This document shows positions 1 to 61,516 of a stretch of 64,000 nucleotides of DNA, piece after piece; position 1 is the stretch's first letter, and each line of letters opens with the position of its first letter. Under the pieces are notes generated by a model. That model had not been told where the DNA came from and made no database searches. It saw only the letters and a list, made by a program, of their open reading frames with translations. Position numbers and translations under genes: made by a program. The stretch comes from Zingiber officinale (taxonomy: Eukaryota > Streptophyta > Magnoliopsida > Zingiberales > Zingiberaceae), in contig NC_056000.1 of the NCBI RefSeq assembly GCF_018446385.1, forward strand, positions 31,016,011 to 31,080,010. The letters run 5' to 3'.

Positions 1-308
1 AGGCAAATGATGAGGTAATATCTACGTTAATTGATATTTTACCTAATGACATGATGAGTCGTGTAGGTAAATACGAGAATGCCTACAATTTGTGGAGCAA
101 AGTGAATTAGATGGTTCTAGGGGAAGAACCTAAACCTACAGAAGAAGAAGAAGAACCCAAGGAGATGGGTTTAATTGCTCAAGTTGAGGTGAAGCAAACG
201 GAAGTTGAGTCATGCTCAACATCCTAGGAGGAGAAGGAAGATGAGGCATCATCTACATCCTCAAGAATTGAAGAAAATTACAAGGCAAGTGAAGAAGAAG
301 AAGAGGTC

Positions 309-1385
309 TTGGAAGTGGTCAATCTAGCAAGCACCTCCATCGAAGTGAAGTCAAAGGACCACATAATTTGCTTCGGGTGTAATGAGAAGGGACATTACAA
401 GAGTAGGTGTCCAATGGGTAAGAAGAAGGTAAATCCTAAACTCGTTCAAGTTAATTTAAACACTAACAAGGGTTGTAGGAATGAAGAAGCCCAAAGAAGG
501 AGAATGTGCATCGTATGCTTCACATATGGGGAGAAGGGACACTACCACACAAAATGTCCAAAGAAGAGGGAGATCAAGAAGCTTGTGCATTTAAAGAAGT
601 GTGAGAAGAAGAAGAGGAGCTTAAATCAAGGGGGAGCTTCAAGGGTAAGGGAAGTATATCCTAACTTGAAGTTTAATTCAAATTTAAACTCCTCCATTCA
701 TGTTAGAAATAATTCTTATTATTTGCCCATGCATAACTTCGGTTTTAGATATCATGATAGAAGTAGAGTTAAGGTAGATCAAAACCCTAAGGCACTCATT
801 CATGATAAATCTAGAAACATTAGACCTAAGGAGACCCAAGGCATAAATCCCAAGAATGGGAGACATATGCCTAGAAAAATGGGTAGATCTAGGAATATCC
901 ATGGTGGACATGTTGACTCTAGGTTTATGAACCTAGAAAGGGGACATCAAGCTTGGAAGGCAAAGCTTGATCGTTTGGAGAAAACCCTAGAAAGATTTAA
1001 TGTTGGATCTAAGGGTTTAGGTATGGTGTTGCGTAGCCAAAAACCCAACAATGATAGATCGAGTTTGGGATACCGATCTAGTGTCTCAAAGGATAAGGGA
1101 AAGTCGTATGCTAGGGTTGCATATGATTATAGCAAGGAGAAGTCAATAAATGGCAAGAGAAAGTCATTTAATGGTAAAGAGAAATTAACCAAGGACAAGG
1201 TGTCCAAGGTTAAGAAAGTTAGGTTTGTAGGCCAAGTGTCACCGGAGGTGCACCAATGTGACCTAGCTATTGTGGATGAGTCACCTAGGGAGGTGGCTAA
1301 GGCTAAGGGCTCTAGGGAGAGCTCTAAGAATCAATTTGGGGCCCATGGCCAATGGATCTCAAGTGGATTTTACTTGGGAGTCTAG
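309..1385 (+). CDS. gag region of element A, zinc-knuckle protein
   Basis: This open stretch of 358 codons is the C-terminal part of a retrotransposon Gag; the frame opens at a TTG, so its left limit is not a real start. It has a zinc knuckle of the standard CX2CX4HX4C form (CFGCNEKGHYKSRC, residues 21-34) and a second spaced CX2CX6HX4C (CIVCFTYGEKGHYHTKC, residues 67-83). The rest is very Lys/Arg-rich and fits RNA packaging. Its wording matches the gag regions of elements B and C, including the knuckle followed by a basic linker and an RLDKLEKTL-like coiled segment. No pol domain follows. It is a fossil or near-fossil part of a mobile element, not a host gene. Confidence 0.75.
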   Translation: MEVVNLASTSIEVKSKDHIICFGCNEKGHYKSRCPMGKKKVNPKLVQVNLNTNKGCRNEEAQRRRMCIVCFTYGEKGHYHTKCPKKREIKKLVHLKKCEKKKRSLNQGGASRVREVYPNLKFNSNLNSSIHVRNNSYYLPMHNFGFRYHDRSRVKVDQNPKALIHDKSRNIRPKETQGINPKNGRHMPRKMGRSRNIHGGHVDSRFMNLERGHQAWKAKLDRLEKTLERFNVGSKGLGMVLRSQKPNNDRSSLGYRSSVSKDKGKSYARVAYDYSKEKSINGKRKSFNGKEKLTKDKVSKVKKVRFVGQVSPEVHQCDLAIVDESPREVAKAKGSRESSKNQFGAHGQWISSGFYLGV

Positions 1386-2424
1386 GCTAGGTCATGGAAT
1401 GTGCCAAGTGGTTTGGAGACGGACTTGAGTCTCAAACCTAGGGAATTGGCACACATGGGTTGTGTTTCATGCTTGGAAATATGACATTGGGGTCATATAG
1501 CATAATAATTGGTTTTGGATGTATAGATGTCATATAAACCAATGCTAGGGACGCATTGTGGTTTAGTATGGGCAAATACATCAAGAGGAAGCCAAAACTA
1601 GGACTTTAGGTCAAAGTTCAATTGAACTTTTTAGCTAGTTTTATGTTTTGTATCAATCTTAGGATTTGTGATAAATATATTTTTATATATATTTTTTCCC
1701 AAGTAGAGATTGATAAAATTACCTCTCCATAAAATTTGAGAATATTTGGAGGTCTGTGGAATTTCTGGCGCATTTTTGAAGTTGGTCAGAAAAGATTCAT
1801 TTTTACATGAATAGTGTACCAGTCGACTGATATAGTTAGCAGTCGACTGGTAACAGTATTTTTGAGCACAGAATGGTTCTGTAAGCTCGTTTTAGTTAGA
1901 GCAGTCGACTGGTACTTGTTGTAGTCGACTGATACAAGTCTGAAACTGTTTTCAGCACTAGATTTTGACCGTGTCAGCTCGCGTAGGTGTATGAGATCCA
2001 TGGAGGGATGAATACATGAGCTTAGGGTCAATTTTGATGATAAGTTTTCAACAATTGAGATATTGTTAGAGAACTTTTTGGATGTTAGGCAAAGGGAGAG
2101 AAGTAAGGTTTAGTTGGGAAAACTTGAAAGTGCCTTTACGTAGGGGGAGCCTTGCGATAGGTTCTTAAAAAACCCTGTGGTAAAATCCTATCTCATTGGA
2201 GAGCATAGGTGTAGGGGGAGCCTTGGGATAGGTTCCGATGCATGTTGCATTTTGTTTCGGCCATGTAAGTCCAAGTGTATAGCTTTGGCAACATAAGTCC
2301 ATTCGGAGGTGTAAGTCCAAGTGTGTAACCTTAGCCACGTAAGTCCATTTGTTATTTAGCATGTTTATTTGCTATTTGTTTTCCCTAACTTAAACGTATT
2401 GCCAAACATCAAAAAGGGGGATAT
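1386..2424 (+). other. 3' internal non-coding region of A with CAGTCGACTG palindromes
   Basis: About 1 kb between gag and the polypurine tract has no credible coding frame. Four copies of a GTCGAC-centred palindrome (CAGTCGACTG or a one-base variant) lie at about 1,812-1,935, the same palindrome that fills the U3 of this element's LTR. Two near-identical phrases (TAGGGGGAGCCTTG...GATAGGTTC) occur at about 2,139 and 2,212. Confidence 0.6.
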
Positions 2425-3511
2425 TGTTGGAGCAATCCCAATGGTCCGTGAGACCATGTGTTTTGGTGTTTGGGCAAAGGGTTTAAGTTAGGTTCACCCT
2501 TGTTATTTGATATATGTACTTGAGTTGTGTAGGATTGCAGGATACACATGTGACTCAGGTTGACGGCTTCGAGTCCGGTGAAGGATGGAGCATCCGAGGA
2601 ATCGTGGACAAGGCAGCGAGGACAAGGGTCGAGGGAAGCGACTTCGAGGCATACGCGAAGGATGACATTGGGGACGAGCCACGGGCTTGAATGCATCCGA
2701 GGGACGAGAGCCAAAGGAAGTAGGTTTGAAGGCAAGAGGTCAAGGTTGTAAAGAAGCGTCAAGTGAGTAGGGTGAGGGTCCGAGTGCTGAGAGATTGTAC
2801 TCGGAGTAAAATTCTTAAATATATGGTTTTACTGTAGCAATCACTATAGCAGTATTATAGCAATCACTGTAGCAATACTGTAGCAATCGACTGCATGTTT
2901 TAGCAGTCGACTGGTGTAGTCGACCGTGCAGTCGACTGGGAGCTAACAGAATACTTCTTTTCATTCGGTCAGTGTGGAGCAGCCGACTGCTAGTTTTAGT
3001 AGTCGACTGGTATCGAGACGTTGAGATGTAACGGTCGAATTTCCACAGAGGGCAGTCGACTGGTAGGCGGGGTTTTCAAGTCGCGACCTATATAACCAAG
3101 TCTTGAAAGCTTAGTTATCTCTGACGAAATTGGACTTGGTTAAAGTCTAATTAGTAGTCTTTTGTGCCCAAGTGATCTTTGTGTGCCAAGAGGTTTTGGT
3201 TGGAGTTGTGGTGAGGTTTCTCCACCCACAAGGAGGTTGAGCTAGCCGGAGTTTGCCGGGAACTAATCCACCGACGAATTAAGTGATCGTCCACCTTAGG
3301 GGCACGCCGTGGAGTAGGAGAAAGTTATCTCTGAACCACGTAAACGAACGTGTTAGCGGTTTGCATCTCTTCCTTTGTATTTAGCTTTCATATTTGTATT
3401 CGTGGTTGTATTCTTTGTTTTTCGCTGTGCACTAACGAATATGTAGGAAGCGAGTATTTGGGGGTGACGTCTATCCAACCCCCCTTCAAGACGGCCACCG
3501 ATCCCCCTACA
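2425..3511 (+). repeat. 3' LTR of element A
   Basis: The LTR of about 1,087 bp begins TGTTGG directly after the polypurine tract and ends CTACA. It holds GTCGAC-centred palindromes (about 2,880-3,065), then a TATA box (TATATAA, 3,089-3,095), then a presumed R-U5. TATA sits between 7-base inverted arms, TTTCAAG (3,074-3,080) and CTTGAAA (3,102-3,108). The end is set by the resumption of copia RT-like sequence right after 3,511. Confidence 0.75.
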
Positions 3512-4632
3512 TTCTTGACATCCATCTAAGATATTCTCTATCGACGAATAGAAGCAAAAGCAATCAGAGTACGAACAGTCATCATTTTTGCAACAGGAGC
3601 AAATATTTTCTCATAATTCATGTCATACTCCTGAAAATAACCTTTGGTAATAAGAAGAACGTTGTATCGCTCGATAGATTCATCAGATTTAGTTTTGATC
3701 TTATATATCCAACGATAACTAATAGTGTATTTTCCTAGTGGCAACGGAACCAAATCTCATGTATGAGTTTGATGCAAAGCAGTTAGTTCCTCAACCATAG
3801 TACTTTGTCAAAGTGGATTACAAATAGCTTTTCTATAGGATACAGGCTCAGAAAGACAATGAATAAATGCAACAAATGAAGCAAAAGAATGAGAATAAAA
3901 AAATCTGGCAGTTTAATAGACTTACGAATACGAGTGGATCGACGACGGTGGAGAGAAGGATCATCCGTAACCTCAGGAGATGATTGGGTAGTGGCAGAAG
4001 GAGGAGCATGTGGAACGGATATCTCAGGAACCAAAGTACCAGATTCAATTGACCTACCAGTAGGAGCTGTGGGTAAAACTTCCTCAGTGTTAGTATTAAA
4101 AGGATCAATACAAAGTAAATCTGACTTTGTCATATTATGCAAACTAACTGAAATAGAAAAGAATGGAATATGCTCAAGAAACACAACATGATGAGAGACA
4201 TACAATTTTGACTAACGGGATCAAAGCAACGATATCCTTTTTAAGTAACAACATAACCCAAAAAGACACAGAGAGCAGACTGAGAGGCTAATTTATTACG
4301 CTCGACATATGGACAAAGGACAAAGTAACTACAACCAAAAATACACAAAGAGGAATAGAGAGGAGCATGCCCATACAATTTTTCAAAAGGTGACAAACCT
4401 AAATTGTGTGAAGTTGGAATTCTATTAATCACGTGAAAAGCGGTAAGGATTACTTCCCCCCAAAAGGTACTAGGAACACTAGCAGACAATAAAAATGAAA
4501 GGGATGTTTCAACAAGATGCTTATGTTTTCGTTCAGCCACACCATTCTGTTCAGGAGTATCTGTACAAGAGGTTTGATGAATAGTACCATCAAAAGCAAG
4601 TAATTGTGAAAAATGATTCGAAGTGCATTCAC
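3512..4632 (-). mobile_element. old copia element 1, integrase C-terminal to RT part
   Basis: Minus-strand Ty1/copia pol remains: the integrase end (about 4,540-4,240, with the phrase SPFEKLYGHAPL), a linker, and the start of RT (about 3,750-3,515, phrases KIKTKSDESIERY and FAPVAKM). It is continuous in order with the fragment at 15,944-16,900; element B lies between them. It is cut at 3,512 by element A. The copy is badly broken with many lesions and is clearly older than A and B. Confidence 0.85.
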
Positions 4633-6403
4633 TGTTGGGACCGAAATGTAGCTAGAGGGGGGGTGAATAGCTCGTCGCGTGCTAGGTGCTCGTCGTTGCT
4701 TGTTTCTTTGATGGTGTGCAACGAAAATACAAGAAACAAAAACATACAATGCTAACACTAAAGGATTTACTTGGTATCCACCTCACAAGAGGTGACTAAT
4801 CCAAGGATTCACACACGCACGCACCCTCCACTAATAAAACACTCCTTTACGGTAACTACCGAAGGAGGAGAAGCCCTACAAGACTCTCAATACAAGAAGA
4901 AAGAAAAAGGGCAGTAAAGAACAAGCAAAAGCTTACAAGAAGTGCAATAAAAACCCTAACCCTAACTTCTCTTCTTCGCCTCTTGACTTGGACAAAACTT
5001 CCAAGAATCTTCAAGATCTGGCGTGGAGAGCTCTGTGGAGAAGCTGTGGAGTCGCCTGTGAAGATCGGAGCTGTATACGTGAAGTTCTGAGATGAATCGG
5101 TGAAGCGCTACAGAAGGAATCGAACGTCCGCAGCTAAATATGACACCAACGGTAGGATCTCGATCGATTGGAACGCTCCCAATCGATCGGGGAGGCTTTG
5201 GATCGATTGACCGATCGATCCAGAGCGCCTCTGTGCTCTCTAGAATAGCCTAGATCGATCGATCGATCGATCCAGGGCTTATTGCACGAAATCGCGCCTC
5301 TCAATCGATCGACTGATCGATTGGGAGCTCTGGATCGATCGCCCGATCGATCCAAAGGGGCTCTGTTCGTGCGACACTTCTCCCCAATCCACTGATCGAT
5401 TGGGATAATGCCTGTCGCGGGGACTCACCCGATCGATCGGTCGATCGATTGGGCATGATCCAATCGATCGGCTAATCGATCCAGATCTTAGTTTTTGCCC
5501 AAAACCAAGTCCAAAGCCCCCTAAACCAACATCCAGTCAACCATGACTTGTTAGTAATATAAAACCTAGCATTTGATCACCCTTGACCAGCTAGGACTCT
5601 CTCACCAAGTGTCTGGTCAATCCCTTTGACCCACTTGGACTTTTCTCCTCTTGCCAAGTATCCGGTCAATCCCTTTGACCCACTTGGACTTTTCTCCTCT
5701 TGCCAAGTATCCGGTCAATCCCTTTGACCTACTTGGACTTTTCTTCCTCGTGCCAAGTATCCGGTCAATCCCTTTGACCTACTTGGACTTTCACCATATG
5801 TCTGGTCAACCTTGACCCATCTGGATTTCCCCGTGCCTGGCTTCACTCACCAAGACTTCCCTTCTGCCTAGTTTCACTCACTAGGACTTCTCTTCTGCCT
5901 GACTTCACTCACCAGGTCTTTCACCTAGCTTCACTTACTAGGATTTTCACCTGGCTTCACTCACCAGGTCTTTCACCTAGCTTCACTCACTAGGATTTTC
6001 ACCTGGCTTCACTCACCAGGATTTTCACCTGGCTTCACTCACCAGGATTTTCCTCTACCTGGCTTCACTCACCAGGACCTTCCTCTGCCTGGTTTCACTC
6101 ACCAGGACTTCCTTTGCCTACCCTCCAAGTTAGGACTTTCACCTGGCTTCACTCACCAGGATTTTCCAGTCAAGTATCCGGTCAACCTTGACCTACTTGA
6201 CTCTCCATCACAATCTCCACACATGAACAATTGCACCTGCAATCTCCATGTGTTGTCTACATGTATTGTCAAACATGTATTGTCAACATGTATTGTCAAA
6301 CCATCAAAACATAAACATTAAGACTCGAGCTTGACCCAATTCAAGCTCAGTCAAACTAGGTCAACCTTGACCTAGGGAATATTGCACCAACAATCTCCCA
6401 ACA
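4633..6403 (-). repeat. 3' LTR of element B
   Basis: The LTR of 1,771 bp reads TGTTGG...CCAACA on the plus strand. Read on the element's own strand it contains, in order, 12 CCTGG-type hairpin units (about 6,170-5,825), nested GGTCAA/TTGACC hairpins (about 5,815-5,590), an ATCGAT palindrome array (about 5,490-5,150), and a weak TATTTA at about 5,140 that may be the TATA box. It is about 100 bp longer than its partner LTR because it carries more repeat units. Confidence 0.85.
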
Positions 6404-7885
6404 ATCTCCCCCTTTTTGATATTTGACAATACCTTCTTTAAGTTAGGCTAATCCCATAGCCTAAACCTCCTTCATGCCACTAGGTAATGAAGGCATAAGT
6501 TAAACTCTTCATTCTCCTCCTAAGAGGGCAAACTCCCTCTTAGATAATGAAGTCCTAACTTAAATCCTACATTTCTCCCCTTATTGGCACACATCAAAAC
6601 AAACTCTCCTCCTAAAGAGTTACTCAATGTTATTCACAACTTCACTCGTTGTGATCAACCCAATAATGAAAGTCTCATACCTTTCATTTTCCCTTAACCC
6701 TACATTCTTCCTCAATGTAGACAAATGCCCATCCTTGAGCATTTTAACTTAAACAATGAAGATATCCACTCTCCATTGTAAACAAATGCTCAACCTTGAG
6801 CATTTTTACTAAAGAAGGTTAATCACCTTCCAAGGTGTATGAAAAATAATTTTCATGTTCTTAAAGAGTAACTCTCCCTAAAGACATGGTCGTGAACTTC
6901 TATCATTGCACCAACAATGACTTGGAATCCCTAAACCTTTAGGAAACCCAAATTTAGAAGTTTGAGGTTCAAAAATTCAATATTGAAACCAAACCTCAAC
7001 TTAAACTTCAATTTAGTCTTCCTCAACCAATCCATCCTTGTTTTCAACATGAAAACACCCTTTTTATGTATACAAATGTATTTTGAGGGGTTAGGAATGG
7101 TTACCTAGACTATACTTGGTTTGGAATGCTGAAATCAGGCTTTCCCAGCCAAAATCAGTTTCCTCAATCGATTGGAGTTGGGTCCCAATCGATTGAACCA
7201 GCTTGAATCGATCCACTGATCAATTCAGGAGGGCTGGATCGATCCGTGGATCGATCCAGGAAGCTTCTGTTAGCGAGAAGCTTGCTCTCAATCGATCACC
7301 CGATCGATTGAGACCCTTCAATTGATCGGGTGATCGATTGAATGCCTGATAGTTCTGAAATTCACTTGCGGTGAATTTCAGAAACTCCCCAAAAATTCCC
7401 TAAAGTTCTAAAAATCATGAAAATTTGTGTAGACACTATTTAGGGTATATAGTATCATGGAAAAATAGTTTTCTAAGAAAATATTTTATATTTTCAAAGA
7501 TTGACACAAACTTGAAAACTTGTAAAAACTTTAGTGTTTTCTTCAAGTTTGTATTCAACTATTCAATGATGATTACTATCAAAAGATAGCCTTCACCAAG
7601 GTTTTTCAAAAACATTTTAAAATAATTTTCAAAACCAATATCCAACCATGTTCCTTGGGTTCAATGCACATGACTTGTACATTAGCTTTCCCAATGATTG
7701 GAAAACACATAACTATGTGTTTTGATGAACTTAAAACTCAAAAGAATGCACTAAATCAACATCTTGAATTTTGTTCATCATCATAACATCTCACTTGTAT
7801 TTAATGTGCACTAAAACACATACAAGTCACCTTATGGGTCTTTGTGAGATGTAAAGTTTGGTTTTGTCCTAATCTAGGAATCATG
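6404..7885 (-). other. 3' internal non-coding region of element B
   Basis: This is non-coding internal DNA between the polypurine tract and the insertion site of D. ATCGAT-type palindromes, the same motif as in B's own LTR, cluster at about 7,160-7,345. No pol-like frame is visible. Confidence 0.6.
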
Positions 7886-8935
7886 TGTAGGACCGTTGGG
7901 CCGGCTAGAGGGGTTGGTAAATAACCTGTCAATTAAAAACAAACAACCCTTCCTCGAACGATTAAGCTAACACTTGTAAAATGAATTAAGCAGATAAATA
8001 AGAGCATAAAATAAAAGACGAGGCACCAGATGTTTACTTGGTTACAACCGATGTGGTTGTTAATCCAAGGAAAATTAAGCTCAAAAACTCCTTCAGGCGG
8101 AGAAGCCTCTTACAGCGTTTAGGCACAGAAAACAGAAGCTTAACTACAACTAAAGCATACAAGTGTTTGGAAATAGAATGATCGTGATTATTGAAAAGCT
8201 TCTGGACCAAGGCTATATTTATAGCCTTGGTCGGGGCGCCTGGATGGGTTCCGGGCGCCCTCGGGGGGATAAAATTTATCCCCCAACGGTTGGATCGAGT
8301 CAAAGCTCGATCCTGTGAAAAAGTCCCTTCCGGGCGCCCCGGATGGTTCCGGGCGCCCCGGACAGCTCCGGGCGCCCCGGATAGTTCCGGGCGCCCTGGA
8401 GCCAAAAGTCAACCCAGTTGACTTTTGGTCCGTGCTCTCTTCTTTGGTTCAGCTCGCCTCTGGTCCGGGTCTTTCTGCTCCGGCTCCGCTTACTTGGGTG
8501 ATCTCTGCCATCCGGAATAGGGCTTATCCGAACCCATCTTCCGGTCTTCTCGAGCGTGCTTCCCTCCGGCTTCTCGTCCCTCGGAATTACCGCGTGTCCC
8601 TTCTCGTCCACCAGCGTACTCATCCGCAGACTTCGTCCCTCGGTCGCACCCCGTGCCGACCTTCCTGCTAGCTGCGTCTCTTGCTTCCCGAGCAATCTTC
8701 CGCTCCGGCTTTCGTACCTCGGAACCACCGCGCACACTTCCTTCTCGTCCGCCGGTGTACTCTTCCGCAGCACCTCGTCCCTCGGACGCACTGCGTGTCG
8801 TCCTTCTCGCTAGCTGCGTCTTCCGCTCGAGTACCTGTGCTCCTAAGCTCCTGCACACTTAGACACAAGGTTAAATACAACGCAGGACCTAACTTAACTT
8901 GTTGATCACACCAAAACAACCTTGGGGTTCCAACA
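7886..8935 (-). repeat. 3' LTR of element D
   Basis: The LTR of 1,050 bp carries a cluster of CCGGGCGCCCCGGA-type palindromes (about 8,235-8,400) next to the presumed TATA box. The TATA box lies at the centre of a perfect 28-bp inverted repeat at 8,205-8,232 (arms GACCAAGGCTATA and TATAGCCTTGGTC). A second inverted repeat with 12-bp arms (CCAAAAGTCAAC and GTTGACTTTTGG, 3-base loop) is at 8,402-8,428. Confidence 0.88.
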
Positions 8936-9379
8936 ATCTCCCCCTTTTTGGTGTGATCAACCTGTGTTAAGCTAGGGTCGACACAGATATAAAATAAAAT
9001 TAAGTCAATTAACTTAATTTGCAATTTAAGTGCACAAGGGTAGAAAATTAGATTTCAAAAAAAAATTTAATTTTCAATATTTCTACCTCCCCCTAGACTT
9101 ATACTTTCTCTTCTCCCCCTTTGATCACAATAAAAAATGGGGTTTAAAAAAAAGCAATCTAAGGGTTAAAGATTTAGAAAAAAATATCTCTAAATCAAAT
9201 CAAAAAAAAAATTCTAAGTCATTAAGAGCAATTTCGAGAATCTTTGAAAATTTTACAATAATTTTCACAAAAAAAAAATCATTCTAAGCCCAAATATTTA
9301 TGCAAGAAAATTTATCAGAATTGATAACGTAAAAAAAATTTTCTTTGCATTTATTTAATTGTTGTTCTAATGCTCTTTA

Positions 9380-10492
9380 TCAACAGGATTTAAATTTCCA
9401 TTTTAATTTATCAAAACTTCTTAAATCACACTGTTTCAAATTTAAAGCCACAAATATTAAACATGTAACAATTTGTATCATGTTAATTTCTATTATTTTT
9501 TGAATTTCAACTTCACAAAAATATTCAAATAGCATAAATTCTAACTTGATAAAATTCCTCAATAATATAAAAAAATCTTTCGGCAATGTGCAAAATTCGT
9601 TTGAAAGAATTTTTTCTAATTTGCCAGAATTTTTTAATAATAGATTTCTTAATCCGAAAATATTTTTCGATGAATCAATTTCTAATTCATAAAACTTTTT
9701 CAATAAAGTAACTTGTAATTCCAAATTTTTAGGACCAGAAAAAGTCTTCGATAATATTTCTAAGTTGCATAATTCTTTCGAAAAACTTCCTTGTGATTCA
9801 CAAAAGTTTTTTAGCAAAGTTTCCAACTTGCAAAATTCTTTTGTTAAGATATTTTGAAATTCGAAGAACTCTTTCGATAATATTTCAAATTTGCAGGATA
9901 AGTTTGACAATTGATTTTCTAATATAAAAAACTCTTTCGATGATTCGCAAAAATTTTCAGGCAATTCTTCGATTGAATCATTCAATTGATCAGAGGTTCG
10001 AGTCCATACCTGACTTACCTTGTCAGTAATTGATTCTCCCCCTATCGAGTTGCTTTCTTCCGAAGATTCTCCCCCTTCATCGATCTCGGGATGTACTTCG
10101 GCTGTTGTAGTACTTACCTCGATTTCGGACTCTTCTGTCGGTGGCTCGGTGTCTATTGAGGTGTCAGCTTCTGAAGGTTCTTCGTAGAGCTGCAAGAACT
10201 TTTCCCAAAGTTCTTTTGCGCTTTCATAATCTGCGACTTTTTTGAAATCTTCCTTTGGTATTACATTCAGAAGATAATATTTTGCCCGCCCATTTGCCAT
10301 AGACTCCTCACGTTGCTTTTCGTTCCAGAGGCGTAGATCGAGTCCTTCTCCGTTCGTGTTCTTTGGTTTTTCATAACCAAATTTCATTATTAAAGAAATA
10401 CCAGAATCTGAGTTAAGGTATACCTCCATGTTTTGTTTCCAGATGGAAAACTCCCCCTCGAATGCAGGTGGGTAGTCGCTAGCTCCGGCCAT
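9380..10492 (-). CDS. Gag-like protein of element D
   Basis: An open frame of 370 codons starts at an ATG (MAGASDYPPAF...) about 60 bases inside the PBS. Residues 1-110 resemble the N-terminal Gag domain of plant copia elements (the DUF4219/UBN2 type): the FSIWKQNMEVYL segment and the YESAKELWEKFLQLYE segment are the usual landmarks. Residues 110-160 are acidic and Ser/Glu-rich. The remaining about 200 residues are a run of imperfect repeats rich in Phe, Glu, Leu and Cys (SKEFFEFQNILTKEFCKLET style), probably coiled coil. No zinc knuckle is present. It is the only coding capacity of D, so mobility would depend on another element's enzymes. Confidence 0.75.
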   Translation of the reverse strand: MAGASDYPPAFEGEFSIWKQNMEVYLNSDSGISLIMKFGYEKPKNTNGEGLDLRLWNEKQREESMANGRAKYYLLNVIPKEDFKKVADYESAKELWEKFLQLYEEPSEADTSIDTEPPTEESEIEVSTTTAEVHPEIDEGGESSEESNSIGGESITDKVSQVWTRTSDQLNDSIEELPENFCESSKEFFILENQLSNLSCKFEILSKEFFEFQNILTKEFCKLETLLKNFCESQGSFSKELCNLEILSKTFSGPKNLELQVTLLKKFYELEIDSSKNIFGLRNLLLKNSGKLEKILSNEFCTLPKDFFILLRNFIKLEFMLFEYFCEVEIQKIIEINMIQIVTCLIFVALNLKQCDLRSFDKLKWKFKSC

Positions 10493-10553
10493 CGTTTTTG
10501 TTGCGTCAGACGGCGGTTAGTCCTTCTGAGGCGTACTCGGCTCTGATACCACT

Positions 10554-11593
10554 TGTAGGACCGTTGGGCCGGCTAGAGGGGTTGGTAAATAACCTGTCAA
10601 TTAAAAACAAACAACCCTTCCTCGAACGATTAAGCTAACACTTGTAAAATGAATTAAGCAGATAAATAAGAGCATAAAAGAAAAGACGAGGCACCAGATG
10701 TTTACTTGGTTACAACCGATGTGGTTGTTAATCCAAGGAAAATTAAGCTCAAAAACTCCTTCAGGCGGAGAAGCGTTTAGGCACAGAAAACAGAAGCTTA
10801 ACTACAACTAAAGCATACAAGTGTTTGGAAATAGAATGATCGTGATTATTGAAAAGCTTCTGGACCAAGGCTATATTTATAGCCTTGGTCGGGGCGCCTG
10901 GATGGGTTCCGGGCGCCCTCGGGGGGATAAAATTTATCCCCCAACGGTTGGATCGAGTCAAAGCTCGATCCTGTGAAAAAGTCCCTTCCGGGCGCCCCGG
11001 ATGGTTCCGGGCGCCCCGGACAGCTCCGGGTGCCCCGGATAGTTCCGGGCGCCCTGGAGCCAAAAGTCAACCCAGTTGACTTTTGGTCCGTGCTCTCTTC
11101 TCTGGTTCAGCTCGCCTCTGGTCCGGGTCTTTCTGCTCCGGCTCCGCTTGCTTGGGTGATCTCTGCCATCTGGAATAGGGCTCACCCGAACCCATCTTCC
11201 GGTCTTCTCGAGCGTGCTTCCCTCCGGCTTCTCGTCCCTCGGAATTACCGCGTGTCCCTTCTCGTCCACCAGCGTACTCATCCGCAGACTTCGTCCCTCG
11301 GTCACACCCCGTGCCGACCTTCGCGCTAGCTGCGTCTCTTGCTCCCCGAGCAATCTTCCGCTCCTGCTTTCGTACCTCGGAACCACCGCGCGCACTTCCT
11401 TCTCGTCCGCCGGTGTACTCTTCCGCAGCACCTCATCCCTCGGACGCACCGCGTGCCGTCCTTCTCGCTAGCTGCGTCTTCCGCTCGAGTACCTGTGCTC
11501 CTAAGCTCCTGCACACTTAGACACAAGGTTAAATACAACGCAGGACCTAACTTAACTTGTTGATCACAGCAAAACAACCTTGGGGTTCCAACA
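10554..11593 (-). repeat. 5' LTR of element D
   Basis: The LTR of 1,040 bp is the near-identical partner of 7,886-8,935, including the TATA-centred 28-bp inverted repeat (10,863-10,890) and the GGGCGCC palindrome cluster (about 10,893-11,060). Confidence 0.9.
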
Positions 11594-11598
11594 TCATG

Positions 11599-12354
11599 CA
11601 TATCTATCTAAACATTTTTGAATTATAGACATCCACCAAGGATGTTACTTGTTAATTAATGTCATTAGTCCTTAATAAACAAGGAATTAAAATGATGTAT
11701 GATGATGTTATGGCATACATCAAAAGGAATAATTTTCAAAAGAAAATTTCCTATAACTATATGATGTATGGATGACATGACATGATATTTTTGTGTTTTT
11801 CATAATAAGGCATGAGTGCAAACACAAATACATAAATATGATGTCATGGCATTTGATGAGCAAGCAAAGCATGGCAAGTTAGCATAGATAAAATACCTAG
11901 ATTACCTACCTAAGTATCCTTAACCCTTAGCTAACTTAAAATTTTAAACCATCGATTGTCCACTATTTCACAAGAAAATGTCAAAAACTAAATTTGACAT
12001 TTCTTTTGCTTTTCCTAATTTGTGTCAATTTAAATTAAGCATATCCCTCAAATTTTGGCACAATTTACTCTTTTAAAGAGTAATCAATTGAGTTAAGGCT
12101 TAAATTTGCCTTTAACTTCCTAAGAACATACCAAAATCCCAACTTGATAGTTCTTATGATTTTCTCAAATTGTGTCATTTAAAATTTCATCCAATTTCTC
12201 AAAATATGACACATTTTACTCTTTCCAAGAGTAAACGCTTTATCCTTTTCATTTTCAAAGGTTAATAATAACCTTGAAAATGCTCCTTGAGTGTCAACTT
12301 CATCATAATTGAGTTAACTACCCTTCCACTTAGAGTTGACACTCTCTAACCCAT
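11599..12354 (-). other. Internal region of B between gag and D
   Basis: Non-coding internal DNA of element B downstream of gag. It resembles the stretch after gag of element C (63,429-64,000) when reversed, for example the shared phrases about four pentamers after the gag end and the repeated 'light' A/T-rich phrasing. No coding frame is supported. Confidence 0.5.
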
Positions 12355-14144
12355 CTATGGGGTAGAGAAGATGCTCCTAGGAACCCAAAACATATTGGTG
12401 CTCCTTGGATGCTCTAGGTACTCACTAGGGATAACTTCCCTAGATACCTTCCTACTGACCTTGTTTGGCTTCTTAGAAGCCTTGGTCACATTTTCTAGGT
12501 CAACCCTAGGGATTGCTTCCCTTGTGACCTTCTTTGTGACTTTCTTGGACTTCTTAGAAGTCTTAGTCACATTTGTTGCAAAAATACTCTTAGGAATAAC
12601 CTCCCTAGTATTCTTGACTTGACCACTAGATCTAGGGTTTGTTCCATAACTATATGGAACTCTATGGTAAGTAGGTACATCCTTTTTGGTTTTAGGTTTG
12701 TATCCCAAACCTCTATGGCCCTTGGATGACCCTTGTTGTCCTAAACATAGATTTTGCTCATTTTGCCCTTTAAGGATATTTTCCATCCTTTTTAGGGTCT
12801 TTTCTAGTTTGTCAAGTCTTGACCTCAAGACTTAATTTTCCATCACTAAGTCCTTAGTTTTTGGTTTTCCATTAAGTCCATGAGCATTTTTGTTTCTAGG
12901 CTTGTAGCTAAAATCCTTAGAGTTCTTGCCTAAAATTCCATCTACCTTCCTAACCCTAGGTGTGATAGTTTTAGCATGGAGAGCCATGTGTTTTTCCTTA
13001 ATGCTATCATGCTCTCTATTCTTATGGTAAATAACATTAAAATGATAAAGACTTGACTTAGCATGCTTTTTACCATTGTTCAAAGGAGTAGGCTCAATAA
13101 ATGATACATTTCTTTTTACCTTGGAGACTCCCCCTTGAAGTGTGCTTCCTCCTTGAGCCTTGACCGCCTTCTTCCCCTTGGGACATTGACTCCGGTAATG
13201 TCCCTTTTGATTGCACAAAAAACACACAATGTGCTCCTTGCTCCTTATCCGGGAGCGGTCTCCTTGGGCTTCTCTTTGCCCTTTGGTGCCACTTGGCCCT
13301 TCTTCTTGGCCAATTTGGGGCACTTGCTCTTGTAGTGCCCTTTCCCCCTACATTCAAAACATATGATATGATTTTTATTAATAATTGACACAATTATACC
13401 TTTAGATGTAGGGGTGGCTTCTTCTCCTTTGGATATGGATGTGGAGGCTTCCTCTTGATCCGATGATGATTCTCCTCCAATAGATTTGACTCGATTTGTG
13501 GAGGTGGAAACTTCTTCATCCTCTTCTCTTCTTGACCCGGATGTGGAGACTTCTCCTTCTTCTTGATCCGGTGTCACCAAAAATTGCTCCCCCTCAATCC
13601 TAGAGGTGGAGGCTTCTTCATCTTCATCTTGTACATGGAACAAGGAGTATGCCCTCTCCTTGCCCTCTTCATTGCATTCCTTTGAAGATGAGGCTTCTTG
13701 GACTTCTTCTTCTTCGGAAGTTGAGCATCTCTCAACTTCGGAGTCCTCTTGATTTTGATCCATCGAGTCACCCTCTTTGGATTCTTCGTGATTTGGTACA
13801 GTGGAGGGGATCTCATGAATCTTTGCTAACTTGCTCCATAGCTCTTTGGCATCCTTGAATTCCCCAACTTTCTCCAATATGTTGCTCAGCAATAGATTGA
13901 CCAAAAGCTTGATCACTTTGTCATTGACCTCACATCTTTGGATTTGTTCTTGGCTCCATTTGTTTTTCTCGAGAGGCTTGCCCTTGGAGTTTGTTGGAGC
14001 TTCAAATCCTTCCATGAGAGCAAACCATTGCTCTATCTCCATCATCAAGAAATTCTCGATCTTTGATTTCCAAAGATCGAAGCTTGTTGAAATAAATGAT
14101 GGAGGCACCCTTGTATCGAATCCAAGCCTGTCTTGGAATTCCAT
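12355..14144 (-). mobile_element. gag region of element B
   Basis: This minus-strand gag region starts at MEFQDRLGFDTRVPP and is closely related to the gag of element C. An N-terminal domain (FDLWKSKIENFLMMEIEQWFALMEGF; DAKELWSKLAKIHE) is followed by a long acidic Ser/Glu-rich tract, two zinc knuckles (CFECRGKGHYKSKC and CFLCNQKGHYRSQC) and a basic tail with a coiled segment. The region is broken in about two places and is treated as a fossil. Confidence 0.8.
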
Positions 14145-14252
14145 TTGAAGTTGAGCTTCTTGTGATGAAGTCTTAGACTTGTAGAATTACTCCAACTTTT
14201 TCACCCTCTAGCTTTGCCCCTTCCGGCGATGATTCCGGTGAAGAGCGGCCTA

Positions 14253-14264
14253 GCTCTTATACCA
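14253..14264 (-). other. Primer binding site of element B
   Basis: On the minus strand this reads TGGTATAAGAGC, one base from the usual plant copia PBS complementary to the initiator tRNA-Met 3' end, placed two bases inside the 5' LTR. Confidence 0.8.
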
Positions 14265-14266
14265 CT

Positions 14267-15938
14267 TGTTGGAACCGAAATGTAGCTAGAGGGAGGGTGA
14301 ATAGCTCGTCGCGTGCTAGGTGCTCGTCGTTGCTTGTTTCTTTGATGGCGTGCAGCATAAATACAAGAAACAAAAACATACAACGCTAACACTTAAGGAT
14401 TTACTTGGTATCCACCTCACAAGAGGTGACTAATCCAAGGATCCACACACACGCACCCTCCACTAATAAAGCACTCCTTTACGGTAACTACCAAAGGCGG
14501 AGAAACCCTACAAGACTCTCAATACAAGAAGAAAGAAAAAGGGCAGTAAAGAACAAGCAAAAGCTTACAAGAAGTGTAATAAAAACCCTAACCCTAACTT
14601 CTCTTCTTCGCCTCTTGACTTGGACAAAACTTCCAAGAATCTTCAAGATCTGGCGTGGAGAGCTCTGTGGAGAAGCTGTGGAGTTGCCTGTGAAGATCGA
14701 AGCTGTATGCGTGAAGTTCTGAGATGAATCGGTGAAGCGCTACCGAAGGAATCGAACGCCTGCAGCTAAATACGACGTTAACGGTCGAATCTCGATCGAT
14801 TGGAACGCTCCCAATCGATCAGGGAGGCTTTGGATCGATTGACCGATCGATCCAGAGCGCCTCTGTGCTCTCTGGAATAGCCTGGATCGATCGATCGATC
14901 GATCCAGGGCTTATTGCGCGAAATCGCGCCTCCCAATCGATCGACTGATCGATTGGGAGCTCTGGATCGATCGCACGATCGATCCAAAGGGGCTCTGTTC
15001 GCGCGACACTTCTCCCCAATCGATCCACTGATCGATTGGGATAATGCCTGTCGCGGGGACTCACCCGATCGATCGACCGATCGATTGGGCATGATCCAAT
15101 CGATTGGCTGATCGATCCAGATCTTGATTTTTGCCCAAAACTAAGTCCAAAGCCCCCTAAACCAACATCCAGTCAACCATGACTTGTTGGTAACATAAAA
15201 CCTAGCATCTGATCACCCTTGACCAGCTAGGACTCTCTCACCAAGTGTCTGGTCAATCCCTTTGACCCACTTGGACTTTTCTCCTCTTGTCAAGTATCCG
15301 GTCAATCCCTTTGACCTACTTGAACTTTTCTTCCTCGTGCCAAGTATCCGGTCAATCCCTTTAACCTACTTGGACTTTCACCATATGTCTGGTCAACCTT
15401 GACCCATCTGGATTTCCCCGTGCCTGGCTTCACTCACCAGGACTTCCCTTCTGCCTAGCTTCACTAACTAGGACTTCTCTTCTGCCTGGCTTCACTCACC
15501 AGGTCTTTCACCTAGCTTCACTCACTAGGATTTTCACCTGGCTTCACTCACCAGAATTTTCACCTGGCTTCACACACCAGGATTTTCCTCTACCTGGCTT
15601 CACTCACCAGGACTTTCCTCTGCCTGGCTTCACTCACCAGGACTTCCTTTGCCTACCCTCCAAGTTAGGAATTTCACCTGGCTTCACTCACCAGGATTTT
15701 CCAGTCAAGTATCAAGTCAACCTTGACCTACTTGACTCTCCATCACAATCTCCACACATGAACAATTGCACCTGCAATCTCTATGTGTTGTCTACATGTA
15801 TTGTCAAACATGTATTGTCAACATGTATTGTCAAACCATCAAAACATAAACATTAAGACTCGAGCTTGACCCAATTCAAGCTCAGTCAAACTAGGTCAAC
15901 CTTGACCTGAGGAATATTGCACCAACAATCTCCCAACA
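14267..15938 (-). repeat. 5' LTR of element B
   Basis: The LTR of 1,672 bp is the partner of 4,633-6,403 at about 96% identity by eye. It has 10 CCTGG-type hairpin units against 12 in the partner, and three against four of the CCAAGT...GGTCAA nested units. The ATCGAT palindrome array lies at about 14,790-15,120. Confidence 0.87.
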
Positions 15939-15943
15939 TTCAC

Positions 15944-44567: not shown

Positions 44568-46270
44568 GGGCATACTTCTGATATCGCCACACAAGGATTG
44601 AATGCAGTTGTTCATTCGGCTAAATTATCGAGCCACAAACAATGAGGTAGAGTACGAGGCACTAATAACAGGTCTACAAGTAGCAAGGTATGTGGGAGCT
44701 ACACGAGTCCTTATCCACTCAGACTCTTAATTGGTGGTGCAACAACTCTTAAGGACTTTTGAAATAAAGGTTATATGCTGAGGCGTTCAAAAAGTTAAAG
44801 GTTGGATTTCAAAAGGTTATTATTTAGAAGATCCCCCAAGCGAAAAATCATAATGCGGATAAACTGGCAAAGCTAGCAAGTTCCTTAACTCCGATGGTGT
44901 TAGATAGGTCAGTCGAGCAAGTGATGTTAATAGCTCACATCGACAAGCCAACCAGAGAAGCATCCCATGACTGGAGAATTCCTCTGATCGAGTTTCTCTG
45001 ATTGGGTAATATGTCGATCGACCGGGAGCAGGCTCGATTACTAAAAAAGAGAGTCAGACGATTCACATTGATCGGGGACCACCTATACAAGAGAGCCTAC
45101 TCAACACCTTTGCTCAAGTGCGTCGGATCAAAGGGCATTCAATACATCTTACAAGAAGTTCACCAAGCCTTCTGCGACAATCATTTGGGCGGCTGATCGT
45201 TGGCTAAAAGAATCCTACTCGCAAGGCATTTTTGGCCTACTCTACAAGCCGACGCTATAAGGACAGTATCAATTTGCCTATCCTGTCAAAAATATCAGAA
45301 CACTCTGCACAGGCCCACGGAAGAGTTGAAGGCATCTGTGGTATCTTGCCCGTTTGATCAATAGGTCATGGCCATTGTAGGGTCATTTCTAATAGCAATC
45401 AGACAAAGAAAATTTCTTCTTGTAGTGATAGACTACTTCTCCAAGTGAGTGAAAGTTGAGCCACTAGCCAAGATAATTGAATAGATGGCTATAAAATTTC
45501 TATGGTAGAATATCATTGGCCAGTTCAACGCCCCTCATAGACTCTTCTTCGACAATGAAAGGCAGTTTTAAGGAAGGAAACTCATAGAATGGTGTGCTAG
45601 CTACGGTATTACGCAGACCTTCACCTCGATGGATTATCCCCAAAGCAATGGCTAGGCGGAGGTCACCAATAAAGAAATCCTCCGAGGACTCAAGACTCGG
45701 GTCGACCATGTCAGTGGGAGCTGGGTGGATGAATTGCTGAGCGTGCTATGGGCCTACCATGCCACACCCCGAGAAGCCACCGACATCACCCCATTTCACT
45801 TAGCATACGGAGGAGAAGCTATGATGACGGTCAAGATGGGAGTTGAGTCCGATCGGATACAACTCTACAATGAGAATAGCCTTGAATGACGTCGCATGAA
45901 GCTAGATTTAATAGATGAAATTAGGGATAAGGCAGCCACATGAATGATGGCGTACCGGCAAAGGATGAAGCAGAACTATAACAGATGAGTGATTCCTAGA
46001 TCATTCCAGGTTAACAACTTTATTTGGAAAAGGATCAAGTCGGTCGCCGACGTGAGCAAACTAGAGGTCCCGTGGGGAGGACCCTACAAAATGATCCAGA
46101 AGCTCAGCTTAGGTTCTTATTATCTATAAGACGAAAATAGAAGGAAGCTCTATCGGTCGTAGAGCACAAACCACCTGCAACCCTATCATGCAAGATAGTA
46201 AGCTCATAGTAGAACTGATGTAAATTATAACACCATTTGTTCTATAAATGTAAGAAAGTTTAAACAAAGA

Positions 46271-46747
46271 TTCGCCAAGTGTCAAAGACTCATATGTCGA
46301 GCAGCCGTGTTATAAGTGAGCTTAGCCCTCATGCTAAATGTCAAAGACTCACGTGCTGAGCGGTCGTGTTATAAGTGAGCTTAGCCCTTACGCCAAGTGT
46401 CAAAGACTCACGTGCCGAGCAACTGTGTTATAAGTGAGCTTAGCTCTCATGCCAAGTGTCAAAGACTTATGTGCTGAGAGGCAGTGTTATAAGTGAGTTT
46501 AGCCCTTACGCCAAATATCAAAGACTCACATACCGAGTGGCCTTGTTGTAAGTGATAGTAGCCCTCGCGCCAAGTGTCAAAGACTCACGTGTCGAGTGGT
46601 CGTGCTACAAGTGAGGGTAGCCCTCATGCCAAGTGTCAAATACTCACGTGTTGAGCAACCATGTTATAAGCAAGTTTAGCCCTCACACCAAGTGTCAAAG
46701 ACTCTCGGCCCAATTGGATGAGTTATAAGTGAGCGTTGCTCTTGTGC
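46271..46747 (+). repeat. 59-bp tandem array in Tat element 1
   Basis: Eight head-to-tail units of about 59 bp have the core CGCCAAGTGTCAAAGACTCA followed by CGTG..GAG and TTATAAGTGAGCTTAGCCCT. Unit starts are regular (46,275, 46,334 and so on). Two longer diverged units follow to about 46,930. Tandem arrays between pol and the 3' LTR are typical of Tat elements. Confidence 0.88.
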
Positions 46748-47249
46748 CTGAAGATAATTAGCAACGGGGTCCAGATCGGGCGTGTAAGAGACGCTCGACC
46801 CATCGGTCGAGTTATAAGCAAGTGTTGCCCTCGTGCCTAAAGCTAATCAGCCACGAGGTCTAGACCGGGGTGGAAAAGACACACGAGCCAATCGACCTTG
46901 TGATTAGCGAGCAAGTCCCTCGCGCAAGTGTTAGAGACTGTTGACCTGAGCGATGAGTTAAGCAGACCTCCGTAGCCAAAAAACTTTATAGCACCGAACG
47001 AGAGCACGGGGATTCATACTTAGAAGATTTTTACAAACTACACTAATGAGGGGCCACAAGATTATAGAATGGTAAACCGGATAGCCATAAAGCGTCGAGC
47101 GGAGACGCATCAAATTATACTTAGAATATTAAACAAGGCACTACATCGAAAGAACTTTAAAAGCGCTGAATGGGCGCATATTTATTCATACTTAGATATT
47201 TTTACAAAGTGCTAGGGGGGAGTACAGAAAGCTAAGAAAACACTTAAAG

Positions 47250-60103: not shown

Positions 60104-61516
60104 TGTTGGTGCAATATCCCTCAGGTCAAGGTTGACCTGGGTAACCAAGCTGAGTCTTGGTTTGGGTTTAGATGTTTGACAATAAGATATTGATTGAAGA
60201 AGAGTCAAGTAGGTCAAGGTTGACTGGATACTTGACTGGGAAGTCCTAACTGGGATGTTAGGCAAAATGAAAGTCCTGGTGAGTGAAGCCAGGCAGAAGG
60301 AAGTCTTAGTAAGTGAAGCTAGGCAGATGGAAATCCTGGTGAGTGAAGCCAGGTGAAAGTCCTAGTGAGTGAAGCTAGGCAGAGTGAAAGTCCTAGTGAG
60401 TGAAGCTAGGCAGATGGAAAACCCTAGTGAGTGAAGCTAGGTGAAAGGCCTGGTGAGTGAAGCCAGGCAAGGGAAAATCCAGATGGATCAAGGATGATCG
60501 GACATCTGGTGCTGGGAAGTCCAAGTAGGTCAAAGGATTGACTGGATACTTGGCATGAAAGAAAAGTCCAAGTAGGTCAAAGGGATTGACCGGATACTTG
60601 GCACAGAGAAAAGTCCAAGTGGGTCAAAGGGATTGACCGGACACTTGGTAAGGGAGTCCTAGCAGGTCAAGGGAGTGACTAGATGCTAGGCATGACATAC
60701 CAACGGGTCAAGGTTGACCGGATGTTGGTTTGGGATATTTGAGACTTGGTTTTGGACAAAAACCAAGTGCTGGATCGATCCGTGGATCGATCCGAGCGTC
60801 CCAGAGCACCGAGGCGCTCTGTACGTAGCAGGTCGGATCGATCCGTGGATCGATCCGAGGTCCAATCGATCGCTGGATCGATTGGGAGGCCGTCGCGAAT
60901 GGCCGGATCGATCCGTGGATCGATCCAGCGCGCTTCAGTGCAGGCGCTCTGGATAAATCCGTGGATCGATCCAAAGCCTCCCGATCGATTGGGAACATTC
61001 GAATCGATCGGGATCCGACCGTTGCGTCGTTAACTGCAGGCGTTCGATGGCTGCACAAGGACTTCACCGATTCACTCCAGCTCTCTCGCAGCACTCACAA
61101 AGCTCAGATCGCCAGTTCTTGAAGGATCTTGGAATCTCTCCAAGTCAAGAGGCGGATCAAAGGCAAGAAGAGAAGCTAGGGTTAGGGTTTTCTGTACTCA
61201 TTGTAAGCTTTGCGCTTGTATTTTGTTTCCCTTTCCTTTCTTCTTGTACTGAGAGTCTTGTAGGGCTTCTCCGCCCTCGGTAGTTACCGAAAAGAAGTGT
61301 TTTCATAGTGGAGGGTGCGTGCGTGGTGTGGATCCTTGGACTAGTCACCTCTTGTGAGGTGGATACCAAGTAAACCAACCGTGTTAGCGTTGTTGCATTT
61401 GTTTCTGTATTTTCCGCTGCATATTCTTGAAGAAACAAGCAACGCCAAGCAACGCCGAGCACCGAGAGAACGCGACGAGCTATTCACCCCCCCTCTAGCT
61501 GCTTTTGGTCCTAACA
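60104..61516 (+). repeat. 5' LTR of element C
   Basis: A 1,413-bp LTR, TGTTGG...CTAACA. In order it has one CAGGTCAAGGTTGACCTG palindrome, eight CCTGG/CCTAG hairpin units (about 60,245-60,475), six nested hairpins with GGTCAA or GATCA inner stems (about 60,478-60,725) and an ATCGAT palindrome array (about 60,772-61,015). R-U5 follows. It is shorter than both LTRs of B because of fewer repeat units. Confidence 0.85.

Follow-up and report, generated by a model that had tools for sequence, protein, structure and literature searches.

The long terminal repeats (LTRs) of Sireviruses carry RM boxes, that is, element-specific palindromes that occur in many copies upstream of the TATA box and are rich in CpG (Bousios et al. 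2010, PMC2829016). According to the available parts of that article, an RM box is a palindromic repeat with at least eight copies per element, a CGG-CCG core and CpG islands; Tnd-1 was the sole exception to this core in the 2010 set, copies in the linker accompanied an ENV gene and were absent in four elements without ENV, and the function of the boxes was left open. The palindrome region of maize Sireviruses is described, in the available parts of two further articles, as a hotspot of small-RNA mapping that evolves rapidly (PMC10760457, PMC5311732). A window of 64,000 nucleotides from Zingiber officinale (contig NC_056000.1, positions 31,016,011 to 31,080,010 of the forward strand), which holds the LTR elements A, B, C and D, was compared with these systems. 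The palindrome arrays found in it are real, and their kind is largely known, since they correspond to the RM boxes published in 2010. New are the linker copies of the palindrome in the gag-only elements A and B, and a paired difference of both palindrome arms in one very abundant design.

An earlier note on this DNA had claimed that each family carries an array of its own palindrome in the promoter-proximal part of its LTR, and the counts in the window bear this out for CAGTCGACTG in A, an ATCGAT core in B and C, and TCCGGggcgcCCGGA in D. The array in the 3' LTR of A (2904-3062, + strand; LTR positions 480-638) is composed of CAGTCGACTG at 2904, 2929 and 3053 and of further GTCGAC copies at 2919 and 3002, and lies upstream of the TATA-like motif TATATA (3089-3094, + strand; LTR position 665). 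All six copies of CAGTCGACTG in the window are within A, three in the 3' LTR and three in the linker. The arrays of B were located in its 3' LTR (5163-5480, - strand, with 17 copies of ATCGAT) and its 5' LTR (14795-15116, - strand), and that of C, likewise with ATCGAT, in its 5' LTR (60774-61008, + strand). ATCGAT occurs 63 times in the window, 46 times in the 4,787 bp of the B and C LTRs and 17 times in the remaining 59,213 bp, where eight copies are those of the B linker. Element D carries GGGCGCCC boxes at 8332, 8351, 8370 and 8389 (19 bp apart) and at 8253 in its 3' LTR (array 8253-8396, - strand), and at 10911, 10990, 11009 and 11047 in its 5' LTR (array 10911-11054, - strand). When both strands are counted, GGGCGCC is found 20 times in the two LTRs of D (each GGGCGCCC box being counted twice) and 0 times in the rest of the window. 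The TATA box of D (TATAAATA) is positioned 328 bp from the LTR end and the five boxes 365-501 bp from it. The proximity to TATA that had been claimed for all families thus applies to A and D; in B and C it is loose, as the motif scan returned only TATTTA or GATAAA downstream of the arrays and no canonical TATA. The named palindromes GTCGAC, ATCGAT and GGGCGCC are present, but the actual units are longer than these 6-7-mers (e.g., GATCGATCGggCGATCGATC in B and TCCGGggcgcCCGGA in D). CpG observed/expected values (ratios only, obtained without an island caller) were 1.16, 1.44, 1.55 and 0.94 for the LTR arrays of A, B, C and D, respectively, compared with 0.87, 0.41 and 1.02 for the rest of the LTR in A, B and D and 0.74 for the window; the D array is not above its own LTR.

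Two other inverted repeats were observed in the same LTRs. GGTCAA/TTGACC recurs in the distal part of B-type LTRs (window 5580-5830 and 15200-15420), and we take these repeats to resemble the W-boxes bound by WRKY factors. GGATAA/TTATCC is found near TATA (window 8258-8285 and 10920-10945; L031, L036, L040, L053 and others) in many D-type LTRs, even where the private palindrome differs.

For the survey of LTRs across the genome, 50 LTRs were taken in the order of their listing within the first 13.2 Mb of one contig (C1), with the primer binding site (PBS) junction as the sole criterion. The motif nearest to -340 within -620 to -200 of the LTR end was called as TATA, which was possible in 43 of the 50. 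Inverted repeats were defined by an arm of at least 6 and a gap of at most 6, and 200 block shuffles served as the null. Within the 300 bp upstream of TATA the 43 LTRs contain 147 inverted repeats, whereas 17.6 were expected and the maximum in the 200 shuffles was 30; the outcome named in the earlier note as speaking against it, a lack of positional enrichment, was therefore not obtained. The excess continues to 50 bp downstream of TATA (14 vs 3.1) and falls to background level beyond. Inverted repeats reach a density of 11-18 per kb over the 200 bp upstream of TATA, compared with 2.7 per kb in window 16001-59800. The surveyed LTRs are partly related and hence not independent, and further inverted repeats (GTCAAC/GTTGAC, GGATAAA/TTTATCC and CTATAAATATAG) contribute to the 147. 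As to the other outcome named there, palindromes that are common outside LTRs, the answer is partial: linker copies do exist, and most of the 412,729 genome sites of the joint pattern treated below were not placed.

A strict test on single LTRs, which called for an identical exact 5-bp arm at least three times and above all of 50 shuffles, was passed by 12 of the 50 LTRs and failed by 38; it was dropped as main evidence for this reason, and the pooled profile was used instead. Many array copies look decayed or of other designs. Seven of the passes lie within 300 bp upstream of the called TATA (L037, L040, L054, L055, L058, L080 and L095), and three belong to LTRs without a called TATA (L038, L053 and L083); in the B-like L047 the array is at least 656 bp upstream of the called TATA, and in L092 it is outside this promoter-proximal slot. 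Six repeated palindromes pass the test in the slot, namely CAGTCGACTG (L037), ATCGGTC/GACCGAT (L054), TCGGTCGACCGA (L055, L095), TCCGGgcgcCCGGA (L058), AAGGCGCCTT within TTGAAGGCGCCTTCAA (L040) and GAGGCGCCTC (L080). A seventh is ATCGATC/GATCGAT of B, C and L047, without a canonical TATA nearby. Another LTR group, represented by L069, L070 and L078, has 4, 3 and 6 copies of GTCGAC per LTR (tandem repeats in L078), and the linkers of this group hold no private palindromes in the stretch read.

That one layout can accommodate different palindromes, as had been proposed, is seen in L055 and L058, which can be aligned with 84% identity over 324 bp before the slot and with 70% over 256 bp after it, with TCGGTCGACCGA in the former and TTCCGGGCGCCCGGAA in the latter. 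L032 and L040 likewise share 84% over 336 bp, and the slot contains TCCGGggcgcCCGGA in L032 and TTGAAGGCGCCTTCAA in L040. The claim of a swap is based on these local alignments among closer LTR pairs, since the comparison with D is not clean. When D was compared with 17 LTRs in four zones, the slot was the least conserved zone in eight, another zone was lower in eight, and a tie was obtained in L080. The slot is at 52% in L033 (88% before it and 81% in the other flanking zone) and at 57% in L097 (83% and 80%); the TATA zone is even less conserved than the slot in L053, L055 and L095, and L049 is most conserved in the slot itself (93%). A clean swap relative to D was dropped on these grounds. 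With regard to the proposed fast-changing specificity, the families do differ, but their repertoire looks restricted: CGGTCGACCG, listed for Vitis, is used by L055 and L095, the half-sites CGGTC/GACCG, listed for Osr8 and Osr10, by L054-type elements, and the ATCGAT core, listed for Tnd-1, by B, C and L071. The best sampled swap amounts to one transition on both arms.

The best sampled group is built from units of two 7-bp half-sites, 4 bp apart and with a variable spacer, which occur as two sister types. ATCGATC-N4-GATCGAT is present in B, C, L047, L071, L073 and L074, and ATCGGTC-N4-GACCGAT is dominant in L054, L068, L076 and L077, with a few units in L072 that have 4- and 5-nt spacers. At spacers of 0-10 the genome contains 260,842 and 200,611 sites of the two types, respectively (reversed-pattern controls: 799 and 20), and the spacer is 4 nt in 89 of 100 and 79 of 100 among the sites listed, all of which are near one end of contig C1. 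The joint pattern ATCGRTC-N4-GAYCGAT has 412,729 genome sites (control: 124), and the arms are mixed in 6,289 + 6,421 = 12,710 of these (3.1%). Arrays with fewer than two units were excluded from the counts of unit types. In the arrays read directly there are 187 A..T and 52 G..C units, with 2 G..T and 4 A..C units, most of the 187 originating from B-family copies; almost all have the 4-nt spacer, except L038 and a few others. At a control position of the ATCGGTC unit, ATC[G/A]GTC, one-sided changes (3,099 + 2,965 = 6,064) outnumber two-sided ones (941). The outer arms, which were compared in arrays with at least three units, vary between the units of one array yet agree inside the unit: the within-unit match is 0.720 in 16 ATCGAT arrays (10 of them B-family copies), compared with 0.583 +/- 0.023 on permutation (0 of 5,000), 0.812 vs 0.754 in 10 CGGTC arrays (5 of 5,000), and 0.690 vs 0.555 in five less redundant ATCGAT arrays (1 of 20,000). 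The LTRs L072, L075, L076 and L077 mix ATCGAT, CCGATCGG and CGGTC units, and are possible intermediates between the sister types.

Two further arrays, which the earlier note had overlooked, are located in the linkers of A and B. The A linker (1820-1929, + strand) contains CAGTCGACTG at 1820, 1840 and 1902 and GTCGAC also at 1924, and the B linker (7167-7338, - strand) contains eight copies of ATCGAT. Both gag-only elements thus carry the palindrome of their own LTR in the linker. An open reading frame (ORF) scan gave 0 + strand ORFs of at least 90 aa between the gag part and the polypurine tract (PPT) of A, and 0 sense ORFs of this length from gag to PPT in B other than those inside the D insertion; on this basis, the 2010 rule that linker copies occur only with ENV fails here. 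Both compartments were read in 27 elements (12 PPT junctions among the matches listed, A, B and D of the window, seven PBS loci and five B-family copies). The latter were chosen from the 28 B-family loci besides the window's own as those with a typed 3' LTR; seven with a typed 5' LTR and 16 untyped loci were left out. Linker copies before the PPT are present in 16 of the 27 elements and absent in 11, including D and its relatives. Linker type and LTR type are the same in 15 of the 16, L075 being not assignable; L079 has one exact LTR copy, and the LTRs of L076 and L077 hold some units of other types.

Position, symmetry and copy number show that the arrays are Sirevirus RM boxes, clusters of dyad-symmetric, putative cis-regulatory sites that lie immediately before the LTR promoter; the link to Sirevirus palindromes drawn in the earlier note is right, as the available parts of the 2010 article bear out (PMC2829016). 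As to the mechanism, we tentatively favour, at somewhat less than even odds, double-stranded dyad cis-sites. The object under selection is more likely to be a symmetric double-stranded site than an RNA hairpin, because the spacing is fixed, the two arms vary together, and G-U pairs are not enriched over A-C mismatches. Selection on an RNA hairpin should lead to broken pairs on the sense strand that favour G-U over A-C; such an excess was sought and none was found, either within units (82 G-U, 69 A-C), where the ratio is the same as across units (fractions of 0.104 and 0.088), or at the type-defining position (2 G-U, 4 A-C). Families would diverge through paired differences of both arms and through turnover of whole units, with slot and layout being kept. 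As the same array type is found in linker and LTR in the A-type, the ATCGATC-type and most of the ATCGGTC-type elements read, one putative recogniser most likely serves both arrays. The arrays probably act by activating transcription of the element or by controlling its chromatin.

Several observations weigh against this reading. The genome site counts refer to copies and not to independent events, and the sister types could have arisen from a paired change that happened once in an ancestor and was then amplified. Most of the two-sided sites listed for the control position share one spacer, and they are probably largely one repeat. The outer-arm excess is absent in the A type (0.369 vs 0.377) and the AGGCGCCT type (0.441 vs 0.429), slight in TCCGG (0.444 vs 0.408, 1,114 of 5,000), weak in GGTCGACC (0.704 vs 0.641, 447 of 5,000) and not significant for B's own LTR by itself (5,490 of 20,000). 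Among 50 sites listed for each, TTGARGGCGCCYTCAA is mixed in nine, which is close to the 12.8 expected for independent arms, and CYRGTCGACYRG is asymmetric in 17 (genome: 33,963 sites, control: 15,882). The 16 linker cases represent three palindrome groups and so go back to a small number of independent events, and L068 combines an ATCGGTC-type LTR with a linker in which the stretch read holds none of these copies. Five array pieces fold well as RNA (z from -1.5 to -6.9), as palindromes would, and outer-arm symmetry that extends past a usual half-site is harder to reconcile with a plain protein site than with a hairpin or templated repair. Arm linkage as a general rule was dropped, given that the ATCGRTC design shows it and the A type, the AGGCGCCT type, TTGARGGCGCCYTCAA and CYRGTCGACYRG do not. 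The units of L053 are themselves mixed (TTGAAGGCGCCCTCAA).

The most probable alternative, although we consider it unlikely, is a mutational origin, in which template switching during reverse transcription or repair (quasi-palindrome correction) perfects and multiplies palindromes and symmetry as such is not selected. Outer arms that are symmetric in a unit and different in neighbouring units are as expected of templated correction. The array type is also largely uniform along an element: neighbouring clusters less than 8 kb apart agree in 8 of 8 cases and those more than 20 kb apart in 7 of 13, as typed from the first 100 joint-pattern sites listed with exclusion of a lone site at 68.5 kb (7 of 14 if included). 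Such a process leaves the single slot before TATA and the single linker position unexplained, it would not obviously produce units whose spacer is constant in length and variable in sequence, and the control position in ATCGGTC units shows mostly one-sided changes.

It is improbable in our estimation that hairpins in the transcript feed small RNAs and that the turnover of the palindromes stems from conflict with silencing by the host, a proposal made for the Sireviruses of maize. The B LTR and D LTR pieces and the A and B linkers do fold better than shuffles (z = -3.1, -4.3, -6.1 and -6.9, respectively), the slot is the least conserved zone in eight of the 17 comparisons with D (e.g., L033), and the maize palindrome regions are small-RNA hotspots with rapid evolution according to the available parts of those articles (PMC10760457, PMC5311732). 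Against this stand the missing G-U excess over A-C in broken pairs, the near-constant 4-nt spacer, for which a hairpin has no need, the z of just -1.5 for the A LTR array, and the remainder of the D comparison, with another zone lower in eight, the tie in L080 and the well-conserved slot of L049. The retention of a silencing target would also be unexplained unless the array had another function.

A further reading, which we regard as distinctly doubtful, is that a family is defined by its linker and LTR arrays as matched partners, in which case a change of type would be needed on both arms, in all units and in both arrays. If true, this code could couple the ends of the element, either by a factor that bridges the arrays or by self-recognition among copies; the ATCGATC and ATCGGTC sister families would be separate recognition groups, and mosaics such as the L077 LTR (1 and 5 units) would be intermediates. 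Very unlikely, finally, is RNA self-recognition, which would give the arrays of linker and U3, both close to the 3' end of the genomic RNA, a part in packaging or dimerisation, with private palindromes favouring pairing within a family: the agreement of linker and LTR type in 15 of 16 elements with linker copies and the strong folding of both linkers tested are in its favour, but 11 of the 27 elements, including D and its relatives, lack linker copies, there is no G-U bias, and the spacers, which would be the loops, are variable and mostly not self-complementary among the sites listed.

The region 1-15938 of the window consists of the three LTR elements A, B and D, with D nested in B. Element A (+ strand) is represented in the window by the end of gag, linker, PPT and 3' LTR. 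Its gag C-terminal part (309-1385, + strand) has CCHC-like motifs by eye, without a Pfam match at E 0.01; the terminal PPT copy AGGGGGAT is at 2411-2421 (+ strand), two further AGGGGGAG copies are 283 and 212 bp before the LTR, and the 3' LTR (TGTTGG...TACA, 2425-3511, + strand) aligns almost end to end with L037 and L039. Element B (4633-15938, - strand), gag-only and interrupted by D, is flanked by the target duplication TTCAC (4628-4632 and 15939-15943). Its 3' LTR (4633-6403, - strand) and 5' LTR (14267-15938, - strand) differ by 59 mismatches over 1,668 aligned positions (3.5%), and its gag (12355-14144, - strand) consists of several open frames with a Retrotran_gag_2 match under the curated cut-off and a zf-CCHC match over it. 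Element D (7886-11593, - strand), likewise gag-only, has the target duplication TCATG (7881-7885 and 11594-11598), LTRs at 7886-8935 and 10554-11593 (- strand) with 17 mismatches in 1,040, and a gag ORF (9380-10492, - strand) with a Retrotran_gag_2 match under the curated cut-off, in which no CCHC motif was seen. The lower LTR divergence of D relative to B fits D as the younger element. Element C (approximately 60.2-63.7 kb, + strand) has a gag ORF of 559 aa (61749-63428, + strand) with CCHC motifs by eye. Between gag and the 3' LTR, pol was not seen in A, B or D. Adjoining B is a remnant of copia pol (4244-4540, - strand; SH3_retrovirus match), and on the evidence of this one flank an older copia element may have been the insertion target of B. 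A tandem array with a 59-bp period and seven register positions was noted at 46214-46803.

Sirevirus hallmarks are present. The 5' end of A is beyond the window, so the PBS junction (ACAAGTGGTATCAGAGC) was read in B, C and D only; it is TGGTATCAGAGC in C and D and, with one change, TGGTATAAGAGC in B, and the pattern ACAAGTGGTATCAGAGCC has 5,269 + 5,217 = 10,486 exact genome matches. The PPT is followed by the LTR as AGGGGGAG-AT-TGTTGG in B and D and, with one change, as AGGGGGAT-AT-TGTTGG in A; additional AGGGGGAG copies number two in A, two in D and 0 in the B linker, and the junction pattern AAAGGGGGANATTGTTGG has 21,803 + 22,062 = 43,865 genome matches. The gag zinc knuckle is represented by the zf-CCHC match in B and by eye in A and C, and a C-rich signal near the 3' end of the LTR was recognised by eye in A (CCAACCCCCCTTC), B (CACCCCCCCTC) and D (CCAACCCCTC).

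No report of these arrays in this host or of paired-arm divergence was found among the titles and abstract openings listed in a search, with most subscription journals outside its reach. More than 400,000 copies of one dyad design are present in one plant genome, and such natural variants could reveal what is recognised, be it half-site, spacing or symmetry; the linker copies in gag-only elements suggest a cis role of the array that is independent of an envelope gene. The gag-only elements resemble the non-autonomous LTR elements called TR-GAG in that gag is accompanied by LTRs, PBS and PPT, and pol was not seen from gag to the 3' LTR. The palindrome region of maize Sireviruses (Bousios et al. 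2016) is alike in position, palindromes and rapid evolution, as far as the available parts of the source go, and unlike in the palindrome itself and in the host. The likeness to the RM boxes of 2010 extends, in the available parts of that article, to the Vitis box CGGTCGACCG, the Osr8/Osr10 half-sites CGGTC/GACCG and the Tnd-1 core ATCGAT, all of which recur in this genome. It also extends to position and copy number, with 5 LTR and 4 linker copies of GTCGAC in A, 17 and 8 of ATCGAT in B, and five boxes per LTR in D (fewer than eight in one LTR). The CGG-CCG core is present in D and the CGGTC types and absent in A (CAGTCGACTG) and in B and C (ATCGAT). The paired-arm divergence of sister families has no counterpart in the available parts of the article, and, within the same parts, linker copies are a property of ENV-bearing elements only, whereas here they are found in the gag-only elements A and B.

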